Shown here piece by piece: positions 5,514 to 33,642 of a DNA stretch of 33,642 nt. A model generated the notes under the pieces. It was not told the origin of the DNA and ran no database searches. It saw only the letters and a list, made by a program, of their open reading frames with translations. The stretch comes from a virus: positions 1 through 33,642 of the IMG/VR virus record IMGVR_UViG_3300032116_000769; one strand, written 5' to 3'. The position numbers and the translations under genes were made by a program. Numbering within the stretch: the first letter of the stretch is position 1; each line of letters begins with the position of its first letter.

Positions 5514-6004
5514 TTTTTAGGTTTGTCGATGGCTTGGTTGAGTGTTGAGAGCAGGGACATTCCACTAATTTCCATCAGGCCCAATCGAATGCGAGCTGCC
5601 GGAGTAAGCCCAAGAGTTTCGGCATAGCGGAGCATTGTGGCGGCAGCATCTTTTTGGATCTTGATGGATGGGTTTGGCATTGGGCCATTTGGTCCTTTGA
5701 CTAGAATGCCAAATTGTTGGATCTGATTAGAGGCTTGGGCATGAACATAAACAGCCACACAATAAGCCTCCAAAGCCGGGAGGAATGACGATCGCATGTT
5801 GTTAGCCCCTCCAAGATCTTGGACAATAGTTCGCCAGACATCATGAACCTCCTGGGGAATGTTACTTGATGGCGGGAATGTTTCCGGTGGAGCCTGAATT
5901 GCTATTGGTGAGATCTGCCGAGCTTTTTTGGCCTCGCCAGGTAGAGGTCGGTTTCCGGTTTTCCGAGTGGCTCTTTTAGGATCAGCAGGTCGCCCCTTAG
6001 TCAT
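5510..6004 (-). CDS. Terminase small subunit, P27/Terminase_4 family
   Basis: This 164-residue protein recognises phage DNA and loads the large subunit. The N-terminus is basic (MTKGRPADPKRATRKTGNRP), followed by a Pro-rich linker. The helical core has VWRTIVQDLG, LEAYCVAVYVHAQA, GPNGPMPNPSIKIQKDAA and LGLTPAARIRLG, the pattern of P27-type small terminases. An in-frame ATG exists at 6046, but 6004 is preferred for GGTGA about 7 nt upstream and for the typical MTKGRP beginning. It overlaps the methyltransferase stop by 8 bp and the large subunit by 4 bp. Confidence 0.92.
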   Translation of the reverse strand: MTKGRPADPKRATRKTGNRPLPGEAKKARQISPIAIQAPPETFPPSSNIPQEVHDVWRTIVQDLGGANNMRSSFLPALEAYCVAVYVHAQASNQIQQFGILVKGPNGPMPNPSIKIQKDAAATMLRYAETLGLTPAARIRLGLMEISGMSLLSTLNQAIDKPKK

Positions 6005-7055
6005 TAGTTTCACCGAACCATTGATCAGCAATTGCCCGAGCCACAACCTCCATCATTTTGGGAGGAACAGACATTCCGACAAGATACTTGCCGATCAATT
6101 CCCCTCTGGCCTCATAGTCATCAGGAAACGAGCCGATACGTTTAGCCTCGCGGAATGTTAGAGATCGGCAGGTGTCCCAGTGTCGCAGAACATTGGATGC
6201 TGTGAGAGTTGGAGCAGGTTGTTGATCATTGATGCGAATGATGTTAAACCCAGAATTCCGTTTTTCCAATTCGATGGTGGCCACAGAATAAGGTCGCCCC
6301 TTAGCTGTTAGAGGCCACCATTTGAGATCGAATGGAGCCGGTGAAGTGTGAGCAATTTCGGCATCAGTAAGATCTTGGACATCGGAACAAGCTTCCCCAG
6401 CAGTGACCCATTTGGATGATGGATTGAGAGTTAGAGGTGGAAGATCTAAGTCCTCCCTAGATGCTACGAAGAACACTCTCTCCCTTTTTTGGGGGACAGA
6501 ACAATCAGCAGCATTGACCAGGAACAATTGGGGACGATAACCGATCTGCCGGAGCCGTTTCATAACAGCTTGGACATAACCCCGAGCATTGCCATGGATC
6601 ATGCCCTTGACGTTTTCCGCGACAATAACTTTGGGCATTAGCCTCTCAACGAGATCAAGATAGTCGAAGAATAGGTCATCGAGAACCTGGACGGCTTGCC
6701 CCTCGCGGAAGTGTTTTTCCCGACCCCAAGCTTTTTCCCTAGAACCGGCCATCGAGAATGTTGAGCAGGGAGGAGAACCATCCAAGATGTCCAGATCAAA
6801 GAGTTCGGGAGGAAGTTCCATTGTGACCAGATCTTTGATTGGAGCCTCGATGAAGAGTTTTGGTTTCAGGTTTTTTTCATAGTGCCAGCGCATTTCAGGA
6901 TCGATGTCGTTAGCCCCGATGAGATCATAACCAGCCAATTTGTAGCCCATTGATGAACCACCACCACAAGAGAACGTTGAGAATACTTTTCGGCCATTCT
7001 TAGGGATGAGATCAAGATCGGACAATAGCCAGGAGGATGGGTTTTTAGCGGGCAT
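5997..7055 (-). CDS. C5 cytosine-specific DNA methyltransferase
   Basis: This 352-residue protein would transfer a methyl group from S-adenosylmethionine to C5 of cytosine in a specific site. Motif I is FSTFSCGGGSS (about 25-35) and motif IV is DGSPPCSTFSMAG with catalytic Cys97. Motif VI is AENVKG (about 146-151), motif VIII is QKRERVFFV (189-197), and motifs IX/X are FREAKRIGSFPDDY and VGMSVPP. No restriction enzyme is adjacent, so this is an orphan enzyme, probably shielding phage DNA from host restriction or marking it for packaging. The frame is open to 7187, but the start at 7055 matches family length and overlaps the upstream gene by only 11 bp. Its target site cannot be read from sequence. 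Confidence 0.94.
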   Translation of the reverse strand: MPAKNPSSWLLSDLDLIPKNGRKVFSTFSCGGGSSMGYKLAGYDLIGANDIDPEMRWHYEKNLKPKLFIEAPIKDLVTMELPPELFDLDILDGSPPCSTFSMAGSREKAWGREKHFREGQAVQVLDDLFFDYLDLVERLMPKVIVAENVKGMIHGNARGYVQAVMKRLRQIGYRPQLFLVNAADCSVPQKRERVFFVASREDLDLPPLTLNPSSKWVTAGEACSDVQDLTDAEIAHTSPAPFDLKWWPLTAKGRPYSVATIELEKRNSGFNIIRINDQQPAPTLTASNVLRHWDTCRSLTFREAKRIGSFPDDYEARGELIGKYLVGMSVPPKMMEVVARAIADQWFGETND

Positions 7056-7524
7056 CGAATTCGAACCCACATTCCGGACATTGATGATCAAAGTCAAAGC
7101 TATCCACATCGATCTCTTTGGTTGAGTTTTGTTGTGGTTCTGGGGAGCCTGGGAGTTCGAAACCAAGAGAGCCGGGAGTAAAGCCAAGATCGGTGAGAGC
7201 CTCTAATTGAGCAGCAAGGAGAGGTTGGTTCCATTTGGCTAGTTCGGCCGATCGATTGTCGGCGATGGCGAATGCTCTTCTTTGTTCCTCGGTCCATTGA
7301 TCAGGAACGATGATGACTTGGATCTCTTCCCATCCCAGCAATTTAGCGGCTTGGAGTGTTCCATTACCAGCCAGCACGATGTTGTCGGAAGTTATGACCA
7401 CAGGTTTCCTTTGACCGAATTGAGCCAAGCTCTCGGCCAGGAGATTGATGTTCCTCTTTGAGTGTGACCGAGCATTGTCGGGATCAGGGATCAGATCGAT
7501 AACCGGATAAGTTTGTATTTTCAT
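7045..7524 (-). CDS. ParB-like nuclease-domain protein, paralogue 2
   Basis: This 159-residue protein starts with a ParB/sulfiredoxin-like N-terminal domain: IDLIPDPDNARSHSKRNI, FGQRKPVVIT, VLAGNGTLQAAKLLGW and AIADNRSAELA. It lacks the HTH and dimerisation domains of chromosomal ParB, so it is not a plain partition protein. The end carries CPECGFEFDAR, half of a zinc knuckle. It is clearly related to the protein encoded immediately upstream. The start at 7524 overlaps that gene's stop as ATGA; the longer frame to 7575 is less likely. In phages and mobile elements, ParB-like domains commonly accompany or fuse with DNA methyltransferases, as here. Whether it cuts DNA, binds CTP or guides methylation is unknown. 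Confidence 0.88.
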   Translation of the reverse strand: MKIQTYPVIDLIPDPDNARSHSKRNINLLAESLAQFGQRKPVVITSDNIVLAGNGTLQAAKLLGWEEIQVIIVPDQWTEEQRRAFAIADNRSAELAKWNQPLLAAQLEALTDLGFTPGSLGFELPGSPEPQQNSTKEIDVDSFDFDHQCPECGFEFDAR

Positions 7525-8033
7525 TCCTGTGAGCCTCTCGCAGATCGGTTCCAATTGTGACCACATTTTGGACAAGTGATGATTGGGTTTTTAGCTGTTT
7601 TATCGGTTTGGTTTTTTTCCGTTTCAGGATCTATGTCTGCTACCGGAACAGTTGGGAAACCGATCTCATTGATGTTCCAGCCAGCATCATTGAGATCGAC
7701 AAGTTGTTTGGCCAGAACATCAGCATTCCATTCGGCTAGTTCGGCAGTTCGGTTATCAGCCAGAGCATAAGCCATGGCATCAGCATCCGACCAATCAGCC
7801 GGAGTTCTAACGACATCAATAGTTTTCCATCCAAGCCGGTGAGCAGCCGTCAAAGTGCCATTGCCAGCCAATACTTTATTGTCCTGGGTTATGACGATCG
7901 GTTTGACTTGACCAAAGTTTCGAAGTGAATTAGCTATGGCCACCAAGTTAGTTTCATCATGGAGCCTGGCATTGTTTGGATCAGGAATGAGCAGATCGAT
8001 TGAGATGTTCTCAATTTGTAGCGGTTCGGTCAT
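7521..8033 (-). CDS. ParB-like nuclease-domain protein, paralogue 1
   Basis: This 170-residue protein has the same ParB-like domain as its downstream neighbour: LLIPDPNNARLHDETNL, FGQVKPIVIT, VLAGNGTLTAAHRLGW and ALADNRTAELAEWN. A short acidic linker leads to CPKCGHNWNRS at the C-terminus. The shared order of motifs, the end-to-end position and the common CPxCG tail argue for tandem duplication followed by divergence. The start overlaps the stop of the upstream zinc-protein gene. It belongs to the operon that also makes the methyltransferase and terminase. Confidence 0.88.
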   Translation of the reverse strand: MTEPLQIENISIDLLIPDPNNARLHDETNLVAIANSLRNFGQVKPIVITQDNKVLAGNGTLTAAHRLGWKTIDVVRTPADWSDADAMAYALADNRTAELAEWNADVLAKQLVDLNDAGWNINEIGFPTVPVADIDPETEKNQTDKTAKNPIITCPKCGHNWNRSARGSQE

Positions 8034-10918: not shown

Positions 10919-11105
10919 TTGGTTGCTCCTCTTTGATGATGATGTCCCGATCAAGTCCGATGAACGAAACGCTGTCCCAGATTTGATTGGTTTTTGGGTC
11001 CATCCAGATTTGGATGAAGAATGGATCAGAGTGCCATCCATTGGCGATGGCGATCTCTGCCCATTTGGATCGGTGGATTTCCATAGCTTCCTGGAATTTA
11101 GTCAT
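10911..11105 (-). CDS. Hypothetical protein downstream of metK
   Basis: A 64-residue protein with [19 protein letters not shown], then [17 protein letters not shown] and an acidic end. I recognise no family. The ATG at 11105 overlaps the metK stop by 8 bp and has GGGAAA upstream, so it is probably translated with metK. The longer frame to 11297 lies inside metK and is rejected. Confidence 0.6.
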
Positions 11106-12321
11106 GAGGGTTTCCCAGAGTGGCGTGTGGATAGTTGATTTGGTTGAGTAGTTGGATGATCTTTGGAGTTTGTTCCCAAGAGAATTCTGATCTCCCGAAG
11201 TGTCCTCCGGTTGCTGTTTGGAGGTAGATGGGTTTTTTGAGATCAAGTTGATCGATGATGGCAGCAGGCCGAAGATCGAATGTTTTGGAGATGGCATCGG
11301 CGATCAAGCTATCCGGGACGACACCAGTGCCGAATGTTTCAACATAAATGGCCAGAGGTTGGGCGGTGCCGATCGCATAAGCCAGCTGGATTTCACATCT
11401 TTTGGCAAGCTTTGAGGCGACAACATGTTTGGCAACCCATCGGGCAGCATAGGCGGCAGAACGATCGACTTTGGATGGATCTTTGCCAGAGAATGCCCCT
11501 CCCCCATGTCTAGCAGCCCCTCCGTAACTATCCACAATTATTTTCCGGCCAGTGACCCCAGCATCTCCCTGGGGACCACCGATCACGAAACGACCGGTCG
11601 GGTTGATGATGATGCGGGTGTTTTCGGTGTCGAGGTTTGGGTATTTATTGAGAACCGGTTGGATTACAGCTTGATGGAGATCATAAGTCATTTCCCTATG
11701 ATCGACATCAGGATCATGTTGAGCAGAGATCAGGATAGTTTCAACCCCGATTGGATTTCCTTTGAGATCATAGGAGATGGTCACTTGGGTTTTGCCATCA
11801 GGTCGAAGATAGTCGATGAAACCCGAAGTCCTAGCCGTTGTTAGCCGGTGAGCAAGCTGATGGGCCAAAGTGATTGGAAGAGGCATGAGTTCCTGGGTTT
11901 CATCAGTGGCGAAACCGAACATGATGCCCTGGTCACCAGCCCCTTGGAGATCATAAGTTTCCGACACATCTCCTTTTCGCATAGATCGCGCCTCGAATGA
12001 CCGATCGACACCCATGGCGATGTCCGGAGATTGACTACCGATTGCCAGGTTGATGCCGACAGAATTCCCATCGAAACCAAGCTTGCTGTCGGTATAACCG
12101 ATCTGGTTGATAAGATCGCGAATGATCTTGGTGGCATCCACCCAAGCCGAGGTTGTGACTTCCCCAGCAACATGGACTTGGCCAGTTGTGACCAGAGTTT
12201 CAAGTGCGACCCTAGCCTCTGGATCTTTTTCGATGATGGCATCAAGTAGAGCATCCGAGATCTGATCGGCGATCTTGTCCGGATGTCCCTGGGTTACTGC
12301 CTCGGAGGTAAATAGTTTCAT
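11098..12321 (-). CDS. metK: S-adenosylmethionine synthetase
   Basis: This complete 407-residue enzyme joins methionine and ATP to make S-adenosylmethionine. The family signatures are intact: [16 protein letters not shown] near the N-terminus, [15 protein letters not shown] (about 127-141), [17 protein letters not shown] (252-268) and [16 protein letters not shown] (273-288). Length is close to bacterial MetK, and I see no frameshift or missing catalytic segment. It is an auxiliary metabolic gene in a phage. Its product is the methyl donor for the phage C5 methyltransferase and could also counter SAM depletion in the infected cell. The start overlaps the WhiB stop by 4 bp. Confidence 0.96.
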
Positions 12322-14282: not shown

Positions 14283-14458
14283 TCTTTGCCCCAAGTGTCG
14301 AAGAATACTTGGATGGCGAACCAGAACAGCCCGAAGAGGAGAACCAAAGCCAGAGGAGTTGTTACCCAAGCCGGGAGCAGGTCCATGATCAGTTGAGGGA
14401 TGGCCATGAATAGGAAGATGCCCAACATCAAGCTAATTGATTGGATTAGGAGTTTCAT
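14279..14458 (-). CDS. Small two-span membrane protein
   Basis: This 59-residue gene fills the gap after ssb. It begins MKLLIQSISLMLGIFLFMAI, has a second hydrophobic span around TTPLALVLLFGLFWFAIQV and ends in FFDTWGKE. Its ATG overlaps the ssb stop as TAATG and its TGA overlaps the next start as ATGA, a coupling pattern found throughout this operon and strong support that it is real. The function is unknown; it could be an accessory holin or an inner-membrane anchor. Confidence 0.75.
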   Translation of the reverse strand: MKLLIQSISLMLGIFLFMAIPQLIMDLLPAWVTTPLALVLLFGLFWFAIQVFFDTWGKE

Positions 14459-14892
14459 TAGAATGGGACATCCTTGTCATCGATTGTGGAGCTTTGGTTC
14501 CATGGATCGATCAGAACCGGAGCTGGTGAATTTGAGGAAACGACTTTGATGTCGGGACCAGTTCCCTTGATTACGATCGAGATGTCCTCGGCCTGGATTT
14601 CATAGCTAGTTCTTTTGGTGCCATTGGCATCAGTGAAGTCCTTTTGACGAAGATTGCCCAGGATCATGACTTTGGTTCCTTTGACCAAAGCCTTGGAAAC
14701 AGCCTCGGCCGATCTCCAAGAGATAACATCGAGGAAACAGGTGTCCCCATCTTCCCAGGAGCCGGTTTCAGGGTTCTTTTTCCGATCGGTGGCAGCCACC
14801 CGAAGAGTGGCGAATGATTTGCCAGAGTTGGTTTGGCGCAGAACAGGATCGGCAGTGAGGTTTCCGATCATTGTGACGAGTGGCAGGGACAT
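14458..14892 (-). CDS. ssb: Single-stranded DNA-binding protein
   Basis: This 144-residue SSB coats single-stranded DNA in replication and recombination. The OB fold is evident: PLVTMIGNLTADPVLRQTNS, FATLRVAATDRK, DTCFLDVISWRSAEAV, KGTKVMILGNLRQKDF and a closing YEIQAEDISIVIKG. The C-terminus ends DDKDVPF, close to the bacterial acidic tail DDIPF that recruits partner proteins. AAGGAAA precedes the start. It would serve the RecT annealase and exonuclease encoded upstream. Confidence 0.94.
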   Translation of the reverse strand: MSLPLVTMIGNLTADPVLRQTNSGKSFATLRVAATDRKKNPETGSWEDGDTCFLDVISWRSAEAVSKALVKGTKVMILGNLRQKDFTDANGTKRTSYEIQAEDISIVIKGTGPDIKVVSSNSPAPVLIDPWNQSSTIDDKDVPF

Positions 14893-20078: not shown

Positions 20079-20516
20079 TTAGGTATTTTGTCCCTTGGAG
20101 CGCCGGCGATCTTCCGCCGTTTTAGCTTTGTGGCAAGCCAGGCAGAGAACCCGAAGATTTGAGATGTCGTTGGTTCCACCCTTGGAGATTGGGATCAGGT
20201 GGTCACATTGCCAGGAGCCGGGTTGGAGTGGATCGCCACAGAATTCACATCGGCCATGAGCTCTCTCAAAGCGGTGTTGCCGGTTCTTGGCGTATTGAGG
20301 ATCTTTATAGTGTCGCCGATAAGGGTTCCGAAGATTTCGGATTTCCTCATCCAATTCCGGTCGATGGGTTGGGCAGTAGTTTTGTTGGGTTGGTATTCCA
20401 CAGACTAAACAGGGCCGAGGATGAGCAGAGCCTCGAAGATGAAGAGGACATCTGGATTTTCCATCAGGTGTTCTCCTGCCACAGATCACACAAGATTTGG
20501 GTCGCATCCTAGTCAT
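20079..20516 (-). CDS. HNH endonuclease with N-terminal zinc-ribbon region
   Basis: This 145-residue protein has an N-terminal Cys-rich part (SCVICGRRTPDGKSRCPLH and PCLVCGIPTQQNYCPTH), a basic helix, and then an HNH domain: CEFCGDPLQPGSWQCDHLIP, SKGGTNDISNLRVLCLACHK. Asp105-His106, Asn120 and His129 are the expected active-site positions, with two CxxC zinc pairs (CEFC, CLAC). The start overlaps the upstream stop as TAATG. It is a second HNH gene in the genome and could be a structure-specific or homing-type nuclease. Confidence 0.88.
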   Translation of the reverse strand: MTRMRPKSCVICGRRTPDGKSRCPLHLRGSAHPRPCLVCGIPTQQNYCPTHRPELDEEIRNLRNPYRRHYKDPQYAKNRQHRFERAHGRCEFCGDPLQPGSWQCDHLIPISKGGTNDISNLRVLCLACHKAKTAEDRRRSKGQNT

Positions 20517-20980
20517 TAGTCCCCTCCACAAGTTCGGCATCGATCAGTTTTGGAATTAGTTTTTGGATAGTGAGCAGAACCACAGATCGAGCAGATGCGC
20601 AGCCTGGCTTTTTGCTGCCTGATAGCCGTCAAGCGTTTTTTCCGTTCGAGTTCCAAGAGTTCTTCCTCCCTGATCTGGATGAGCTGATCAAGATGGCAGG
20701 TTCGGCAGAGGTTGGTTTTTTTCATTGATGCTAAACGAATTCCACAGAGAGAACAGACATCGAGGTTGGGAGCTTCCTGGATGCGGTTGAGAATGTAGTC
20801 CCCTCCCTTCCTGATGTCGAAGTCCTCTCCACTAGGTTCGAGGGAGAGATTGAGTTGTTGAGCTTTGTTTTTGATTGATGAAACGGATCGGTCAAGGATC
20901 AGAGAGAGAACAAGGATGCCAGCTGATTGGTAAAGCCGGAGAACCTTGATCTCCCCTGTGGTCCATTCCCTTTTGGTCAT
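20516..20980 (-). CDS. HTH and zinc-ribbon DNA-binding protein
   Basis: The N-terminal part of this 154-residue protein resembles a Myb/SANT-type or other helix-turn-helix: REWTTGEIKVLRLYQSAGI, then LDRSVSSIKNKAQQLNLSL. It is followed by two Cys-rich units, CSLCGIRLASMKKTNLCRTC and ICSICGSAHYPKTNSKTDRC, joined by a charged coiled-coil helix. It is probably a regulator or replication accessory protein. The ATG overlaps the upstream initiator gene stop (ATGA). Confidence 0.7.
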   Translation of the reverse strand: MTKREWTTGEIKVLRLYQSAGILVLSLILDRSVSSIKNKAQQLNLSLEPSGEDFDIRKGGDYILNRIQEAPNLDVCSLCGIRLASMKKTNLCRTCHLDQLIQIREEELLELERKKRLTAIRQQKARLRICSICGSAHYPKTNSKTDRCRTCGGD

Positions 20981-21495
20981 GTAAGTCCTTTTAGGATCTC
21001 CTCAATAGCATCACCGATCATGGTGAGAGAGTTATCCCCAGATTTTTTGGAATGACGGTTAACTTGATGGTTAAGTGATGGTTTGGTGGTCAAGTGTGAC
21101 CTCCTAGGTGTGTCACCGGTGGCCAGATCTAGGTGGTCATTCTCAACAATTCTCCCCAAGTCATCTGTGGATAACTTTGTGGAATTGAGGAGAGATGGTC
21201 GCCTGGTTAGAACATGAGCATGGATCTTGTAGGCGTTGGAGATGCGGATAGTTTTGCCATCCCTTTTGATGATCGTGCCTGTTCTAAGTTTGGAAACGAC
21301 CCCAAGCTCGATGAGATCATGAACATGGCGGCGAACAGTTCTCTCTGATTGGCAGGCAAGTTGAGAGATGCGGCGATAGCTTGGCCAGCAGACACCATCG
21401 GCATCAGCGTGATCAGCCAGGATCATGGCGACCAGTTTGACCGGTGGCGGAGCCGTCAAGTATTCGAGAACCAGGGAAGTGTGTTTGATGGACAT
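20977..21495 (-). CDS. Winged-helix replication-initiator-like protein
   Basis: The 172-residue protein starts MSIKHTSLVLEYLTAPPPVK and has VKLVAMILADHADADGVCWP, SYRRISQLACQSERTVRRHV and HDLIELGVVSKLRTG, a winged helix like those in phage replication initiators of the O/DnaD type. The C-terminal half is basic and probably flexible. It is the first gene of the replication operon, just after the non-coding divider. Its coding sequence contains three direct repeats and two DnaA-box-like sites, as lambda O contains the lambda origin. AAGGAAAA precedes the start. Confidence 0.72.
   Translation of the reverse strand: MSIKHTSLVLEYLTAPPPVKLVAMILADHADADGVCWPSYRRISQLACQSERTVRRHVHDLIELGVVSKLRTGTIIKRDGKTIRISNAYKIHAHVLTRRPSLLNSTKLSTDDLGRIVENDHLDLATGDTPRRSHLTTKPSLNHQVNRHSKKSGDNSLTMIGDAIEEILKGLT
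21030..21176. other. Candidate replication origin inside the initiator gene
   Basis: A DnaA-box-like TTATCCCCA is at 21032-21040 and a perfect consensus box (TGTGGATAA, reverse of TTATCCACA) at 21166-21174. Between them are three near-identical direct repeats, TGACGGTT (21053-21060), TGATGGTT (21065-21072) and TGATGGTT (21076-21083), spaced 12 and 11 bp. An AT run (GATTTTTT) lies next to the first box. Iterons within an initiator gene are the lambda-type arrangement. Confidence 0.5.
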
Positions 21496-21605
21496 TCAGT
21501 TTTCCTTTTTGGCAGTGGCGGATTGAGGTTAGGGTTCTAGCCTCGATTAGATTGTAGTCCTTTTTTTTGGATTGCCCTGTTATTGATCAAGAGCCGGGAA
21601 TAAAG

Positions 21606-21662
21606 AATGGCAGCCCCAGAGCCGTTGGGAACCGAAGTTCCGGGGATGGAGCTGCCATTTTT
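21606..21662 (-). terminator. Long stem-loop with a UUCG tetraloop
   Basis: Outer arms 21606-21614 and 21651-21659 pair perfectly for 9 bp. Nested inside is GGAAC-TTCG-GTTCC on the minus strand (21628-21641), a classic stable C(UUCG)G tetraloop hairpin. CCCC and GGGG between them can also pair. On the minus strand the outer stem is followed by CTTTATT; on the plus strand it is followed by TTTTT. It may terminate transcription in either direction. Confidence 0.65.
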
Positions 21663-21705
21663 GCCACCACCAAGATGGACAAGTAAGAGCCTAGCATAAG
21701 AATGA

Positions 21706-21748
21706 CCCTCCCATCAAGCCGAGGTTGTTGGCGTGTTGGATGGGAGGG
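21706..21748 (-). terminator. Second hairpin of the divider
   Basis: Arms 21706-21715 and 21739-21748 form a perfect 10-bp stem around a 23-base loop. On the minus strand it is followed by TCATTCTTATG, close to the CATTCTTTATT that follows the neighbouring UUCG structure. The two are therefore probably tandem terminators of the late transcript. Confidence 0.6.
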
Positions 21749-21753
21749 CCATC

Positions 21754-21774
21754 GCCGATCGAGGGGAGATCGGC
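21754..21774 (-). terminator. Short GC-rich hairpin after the last lysis gene
   Basis: GCCGATC and GATCGGC (7 bp, loop of 7) lie 11 bp past the stop of the last lysis gene. There is no U-tract. It may protect the mRNA end or act with the next two hairpins. Confidence 0.45.
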
Positions 21775-21784
21775 AGGGTTCCGC

Positions 21785-33210: not shown

Positions 33211-33405
33211 TTATTTGGTGGCCGTTTCGCCTTTGGATTTAGTTGCTCTCTCGGCAGTAGCTGGAACAGCAACCCCAGCCCCGATGAAGTAAGCGGCAAC
33301 ATCTTCGGGAACCGATGCTGTTGTTCCTGCCTGGTATTCGTAGGATTGAGGTCCATCAGCTGTGGCGATCTGGTAGTTGCCATAAGAGTTAAACGTGATC
33401 TTCAT
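33211..33405 (-). CDS. Small protein at the head of the connector/tail operon
   Basis: A 64-residue product starting MKITFNSYGNYQIATADGPQ, with SVPEDVAAYFIGAGVAVPAT and a Lys/Thr-rich end. Similar small proteins (short beta part and charged tail) often follow the capsid gene in actinophages, but the role is not known. The ribosome site GAGGAG is 6-7 nt from the ATG. It follows the capsid hairpin and a GTGACAC element. Confidence 0.65.
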   Translation of the reverse strand: MKITFNSYGNYQIATADGPQSYEYQAGTTASVPEDVAAYFIGAGVAVPATAERATKSKGETATK

Positions 33406-33642
33406 TCGGATCTCCTCGATTTTTTGTTGTTCTTATCTTCGCAGTGGTGTCACGAACGGATCAAGTTGATACCAGCCAGGAAACCGAATGCCCTCCGATT
33501 TTGTCGGAGGGCATCAGGTTTTGATTTGTTTTTAAGCGTTGTTGCTCTTCAACAGAACGACCGCATCCTTGTTCCAAGGAGTTCCACCTAGACGAGCCAA
33601 GCCGTAGAAACGGACATTCGGCGCGGCAGTGTAAGGATCTCT
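33404..33642. repeat. Terminal direct repeat, copy 2
   Basis: This copy matches 1-239 except for T at 33531. It includes a second copy of the GTGACAC element (33447-33453) and of the hairpin (33488-33514). Confidence 0.93.
33532..33642 (-). CDS. Major capsid protein, 3' fragment (contig overlap)
   Basis: This is the last 36 codons and stop of the capsid gene, identical to 129-239. It is cut by the contig end and is not a separate gene. Confidence 0.9.
   Translation of the reverse strand, partial: RDPYTAAPNVRFYGLARLGGTPWNKDAVVLLKSNNA

Follow-up and report, generated by a model that had tools for sequence, protein, structure and literature searches.

A putative lambda-like replication origin with DnaA boxes inside the O-like initiator gene of a metagenomic phage

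The phage genome analysed here, a virus record of 33,642 bases referred to below as the window, quite probably carries its replication origin inside its own initiator gene. The putative origin spans 147 bp (21030-21176, minus strand), as delimited by alignment to a relative, synonymous conservation and codon mapping, and would occupy the linker codons of an O-like protein in a lambda-like arrangement to which host DnaA has been added and in which the host helicase and polymerase are used. This reading, drawn from sequence comparison, provides a precise predicted origin for a phage known solely from metagenomic sequence, and it would combine an O-type initiator and host DnaA boxes in one origin within coding sequence.

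The two ends of the record, 1-239 and 33404-33642, form a terminal direct repeat of about 239 bases each with one mismatch, and the map is therefore probably a complete circle of about 33.4 kb (or that of a terminally redundant genome). The principal genes lie on the minus strand. Structural genes (terminase, portal, capsid protease, capsid and tail) are present, together with recombination and nuclease genes (RecE-like, RecT, RusA, HNH and an SbcD-like nuclease), and the phage also encodes a single-strand DNA-binding protein (SSB; 14458-14892, minus strand; Pfam SSB, 4e-23), an S-adenosylmethionine synthetase and a WhiB-like protein. To our knowledge, WhiB proteins are restricted to Actinobacteria and their phages; the WhiB-like protein thus indicates a probable actinobacterial host. 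Pfam and PHROG scans, applied to the genes apart from some small ORFs, revealed no helicase, primase or polymerase, in agreement with the proposal of the first-pass annotation that this phage replicates without a polymerase or helicase of its own. The S-adenosylmethionine synthetase (11098-12321) occurs in the same phage as a C5 cytosine methylase (5997-7187), perhaps for self-methylation. In addition, 7521-8033 encodes a ParB N-terminal-domain protein, and plasmid-like partition genes were not noted in the phage.

The initiator gene (20977-21495, minus strand) encodes a protein of 172 aa that matches HTH_36 in Pfam (E = 9.5e-13) and the 'replication initiation (O-like)' families of PHROG (best E = 9.3e-20). 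A plasmid-type Rep identity is not supported, as the protein gave HTH_36 and O-like matches only and a match to the RP-C N-terminal domain fell under its cut-off. AlphaFold2 predicted a winged-helix fold confidently to about residue 70 and with lower confidence to about residue 100, followed by a disordered segment (residues 102-154) and a C-terminal helix (158-171). The closest viral structure models were O-like and helix-turn-helix phage proteins, and a fold search of the PDB returned generic winged-helix matches only, none with E < 0.001. The earlier placement of the site in the coding sequence of a winged-helix initiator is thus borne out, and codon mapping further assigns the putative origin to codons 107-156, coinciding with the disordered segment. 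The protein ends at residue 172, shortly after codon 156, and has no lambda-like C-terminal partner-binding domain. No match to a P-like helicase loader was found for the phage in Pfam and PHROG; the next gene (20516-20980, minus strand), which overlaps the initiator gene by ATGA, encodes a 154-aa protein with zinc-finger-like CxxC pairs and without a Pfam match above the cut-off. A CxxC gene also lies beside O in the relative L002, and because the O protein of Arthrobacter phage Decurro has a CxxC-rich C-terminal stretch, this CxxC protein may be a partner of the initiator.

L002, one syntenic relative found by a RecE search, has homologues of O, the CxxC protein, HNH, RusA, RecE, RecT and SbcD, and its initiator is 48% identical to that of this phage. 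From box to box, the 147 nt of the two phages align without gaps, with 96 identical positions (65%), and the elements stand at offsets 1, 38, 73, 85, 94, 105, 117 and 137 in both. Amino-acid identity is lower in the origin than upstream of it (44% vs 56%), and third-position identity is higher (62% vs 34%). Among identical residues, identical codons were used at 17 of 23 positions in the origin and 18 of 53 upstream (Fisher p = 0.002), so that synonymous conservation in the origin is about twice that in the rest of the gene. Conservation beyond protein constraint, which the first-pass annotation had set as a test, is therefore observed. Just before O, L002 (3947-5743) has integrase-like, XRE-like regulator and small HTH/excisionase-like ORFs, as read from the sequences; this phage has only a 289-bp gap (21496-21784) in their place, and lysogeny may differ between the two.

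Two inverted DnaA boxes frame the putative origin. Box 1, TTATCCACA, is perfect (21166-21174, minus strand) and has the same offset in L002, and box 2, TTATCCCCA, matches the consensus with one mismatch (21032-21040, plus strand), so the repeats do lie between a near-perfect and a perfect box, as first described. The 11-nt box blocks are 125 nt apart in both phages. Single one-mismatch boxes are not unusual across the window (12 observed vs 6.5 expected); none of 300 dinucleotide shuffles of the whole 33,642-nt stretch contained two inverted boxes, one of them perfect, within 160 bp, and codon shuffles that keep the protein yielded the box pair in 3 of 5000 cases here and in none of 5000 with the L002 gene. 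The departure of box 2 from the consensus is counted against the origin reading, as is the GC skew, a check that had been suggested earlier and was run as GC3 skew: it did not single out the putative origin (rank 24%) and was uninformative. The boxes adjoin the candidate initiator repeats, as in the DnaA-dependent origins of iteron plasmids. The adjacent A/T run that had been pointed out, ATTTTTTGG at about 21042-21050, does exist; it was dropped as an unwinding element because it is not conserved in L002.

Three copies of TGACCACC, each defined by the L002 alignment, appear likelier than TGAYGGTT to be the initiator's own sites. Candidate sites 1 (TGACCACCTAG; 21129-21139, minus strand) and 2 (TGACCTCCTAG; 21097-21107, plus strand) are the left and right arms of an inverted repeat, 11 bp each with a 21-nt spacer, and candidate site 3 (TGACCACC; 21085-21092, minus strand) adjoins a run of 11-mers. 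The L002 counterparts of sites 1 and 3 are TGTCCACCTAG, at the same offset, and TGTCTACC. All three copies changed from TGACCACC in this phage to TGTCCACC in L002, and the A>T difference that site 2 shows at position 3 in L002 is matched by a compensating change in the other arm. The inverted repeat is found at the same place in both phages, a co-occurrence seen in 0 of 500 protein-preserving shuffles. These concerted and compensatory changes fit repeats that track the specificity of a binding protein, which, with two sequences compared, is suggestive. The sites are short, three copies of 8-11 bp with two as an inverted repeat, compared with the four annotated 18-bp iterons of lambda.

The 11-mers are three tandem copies of AACCRTCA (21053-21083, minus strand) in the position of an unwinding element. 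On the other strand they read TGAYGGTT, and the three spaced repeats of the first-pass annotation are indeed present, starting at 21053, 21065 and 21076 (plus strand; spacing 12 and 11) and exceeding chance, with no such triplet within 40 bp in 300 dinucleotide shuffles of the whole stretch. L002 keeps the offsets with the version AATCNTMA, AACC having become AATC in all three 11-mers. In L002, which is GC-rich, this stretch is 68% AT vs 40% overall (top 0.14% of windows); in this phage it is moderately AT-rich (61% vs 51%, a value reached by 5% of windows).

A tandem element of 10-13 bp also directly follows phage-specific iterons in the O-like genes of other phages of Actinobacteria and Pseudomonadota. 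It reads AAACCATCACTAAACCATC in Decurro, AAACCATCCATTAACCATC in Curtobacterium phage Root and AAACCATCATTAACCATCAAAGAACCATC in Vibrio phage 1.042.O, and related AACCRTC or AACCAGTC tandems are found in ST64B, SfV, Abidatro and Pseudomonas TC7; the iterons immediately upstream are unrelated in each of these phages, and the initiators of tandem-bearing phages share about 35-50% identity. Among 32 diverse O-like genes, 9 contained an AACCRTC pair within 9-18 bp vs a mean of 0.5 (max 3) in protein-preserving shuffles, none contained the pair in reverse orientation, and only 2 of 2323 other ORFs had it. The tandems use all three reading frames. As the O-like genes were mostly recruited by N-terminal domain matches, the motif was not selected by the search; the pattern was set after part of the data had been viewed, a bias that is reduced, though not eliminated, by the shuffles, the 2323 ORFs and the reverse orientation. 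Exact 7-mer enrichment was overly strict for a clear signal. The tandem sits where lambda has its AT-rich region and where plasmid and bacterial origins have their 13-mers (PMC7466680, PMC5043065), and no description of it was found in the literature searched, which lay mostly outside subscription journals. We tentatively suggest, as a possibility somewhat short of even, that the AACCRTCM tandem (10-13-bp period, coding-strand oriented, in any frame) is a general, previously undescribed cis-element of O-type origins in phages that infect Actinobacteria and Pseudomonadota, which, during helicase loading, might be read either in melted, single-stranded form or by a host factor that is conserved, with the neighbouring iterons diverging with each initiator. 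If O-type origins that are otherwise unrelated share such a repeat, phage origins could be located from sequence, and the sharing would suggest that they have a step in common, either melting or helicase loading.

These comparisons bear on the function first assigned to TGAYGGTT, that of iterons bound by the initiator, with the TGACCACC sites accessory or due to chance. Three copies spaced 11-12 bp apart and flanked by the boxes, with kept positions and a concerted change in L002, would suit such a role. However, iterons vary from phage to phage, whereas the AACCRTC tandem recurs beside unrelated iterons of initiators about 35-50% identical, and the iteron position here is taken by TGACCACC. 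Because the same tandem trails unrelated iterons in many O-like genes, TGAYGGTT probably does not serve as this initiator's iteron; the earlier assignment is unlikely and TGACCACC, a repeat absent from the first-pass annotation, is the candidate in its place.

Two further explanations would deny the segment a role as an origin. DnaA also acts as a transcription factor, and the sites might form an operator through which the initiator and DnaA regulate the gene from within while replication begins elsewhere; the noncoding 289 bp upstream (21496-21784) could house an origin. Yet the sites lie about 320-470 bp into the gene with no promoter-like site nearby, and iterons plus a melting element are the established layout of origins (PMC7466680, PMC5043065), which makes an operator improbable. 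It is more improbable still, to the point of being hardly credible, that protein-level constraint on a low-complexity linker (KPSLNHQVN, SGDNS) yields the repeats and boxes by accident. The linker peptide is partly conserved, but the elements surpass protein-preserving codon shuffles, the repeats occupy differing frames, synonymous sites are kept and the layout is mostly noncoding in relatives with shorter ORFs; as a full explanation, protein constraint is refuted.

For the preferred reading, an intragenic origin, we infer the following assignment of proteins to elements, starting point of melting and requirement for DnaA. The winged-helix domain would bind the TGACCACC sites, namely the 11-bp inverted pair and the third copy beside the 11-mers, and host DnaA would occupy the inverted pair of boxes at its two ends. 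On the lambda analogy, binding of the initiator to TGACCACC would put strain on the neighbouring 11-mers and cause them to open, such that initiator and DnaA jointly open the AACCRTCA tandem stretch, and DnaA on its boxes may stabilise the opening or recruit host DnaB. Host DnaB and the replisome would then be loaded for theta replication, with the phage SSB coating single strands.

In lambda, the origin lies inside the O gene, where repeated sites are followed by a melting region and the host helicase and polymerase are used (PMC7466680, PMC5043065). As judged from layout and conservation, the present origin likewise falls within the stretch coding for the flexible linker of a winged-helix, O-like initiator. 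Unlike this phage, lambda has neither a DnaA box within one mismatch nor an AACCRTC tandem in the region of its origin that was examined, and it has a P helicase-loader gene, whereas none was found here and the initiator ends 16 residues past the origin. Of the lambda O/ori layout first proposed, an intragenic origin with DnaA boxes is well supported by L002, by colinear relatives and by the lack of a helicase, primase or polymerase among the genes scanned; the boxes themselves set it apart from lambda. The O-like genes of Decurro and Root resemble the present one in that intragenic iterons run straight into tandem AACCATC 11-mers with the same spacing. They differ in their iterons and in an extra C-terminal region, and the region retrieved contains no DnaA box with at most one mismatch; DnaA is therefore not general to these origins. 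The iteron origins of RK2, pSC101, P1 and F also bring DnaA boxes together with sites for the initiator and with an unwinding element that carries repeats (PMC5043065), whereas here the origin is inside the initiator gene, the initiator is of the O-like HTH_36 type, and the iterons and repeats are others.

The full intragenic arrangement was found in one close relative only, L002. No second full member of the lineage came from searches with the initiator, RecE, RecT and HNH proteins, a genome scan returned only distant O-like genes, and the last viral scan gave no other case. A viral scan for the DnaA-box pair returned 68 loci, of which L069 is the L002 contig and the others are mainly noncoding DnaA-box clusters; in L021, L057 and L042 an O-like ORF lies beside the site. 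In L106, L107, L021 and L057 the O-like ORF is shorter, at about 125 aa, and stops soon past box 1. Box 1 sits in LST codons there, close to the KLST position of this phage's protein, in which box 1 also codes for LST. After box 1, these four loci show 22-bp repeats, an inverted half-site, an AT-rich stretch and an inverted box 2, mostly in noncoding sequence. In L118 and L119, 22-bp repeats lie in the coding 3' end and such a box pair is absent. At least three 22-bp repeats, CACGACCCGACATTTACGCCGT, are found at L118:8764-8851 in the 3' end of a 152-aa O-like ORF, a candidate intragenic origin. Finally, L033, L073, L075 and L070 contain many DnaA boxes in about 150 bp and are possible DnaA-driven origins or DnaA-titrating clusters.
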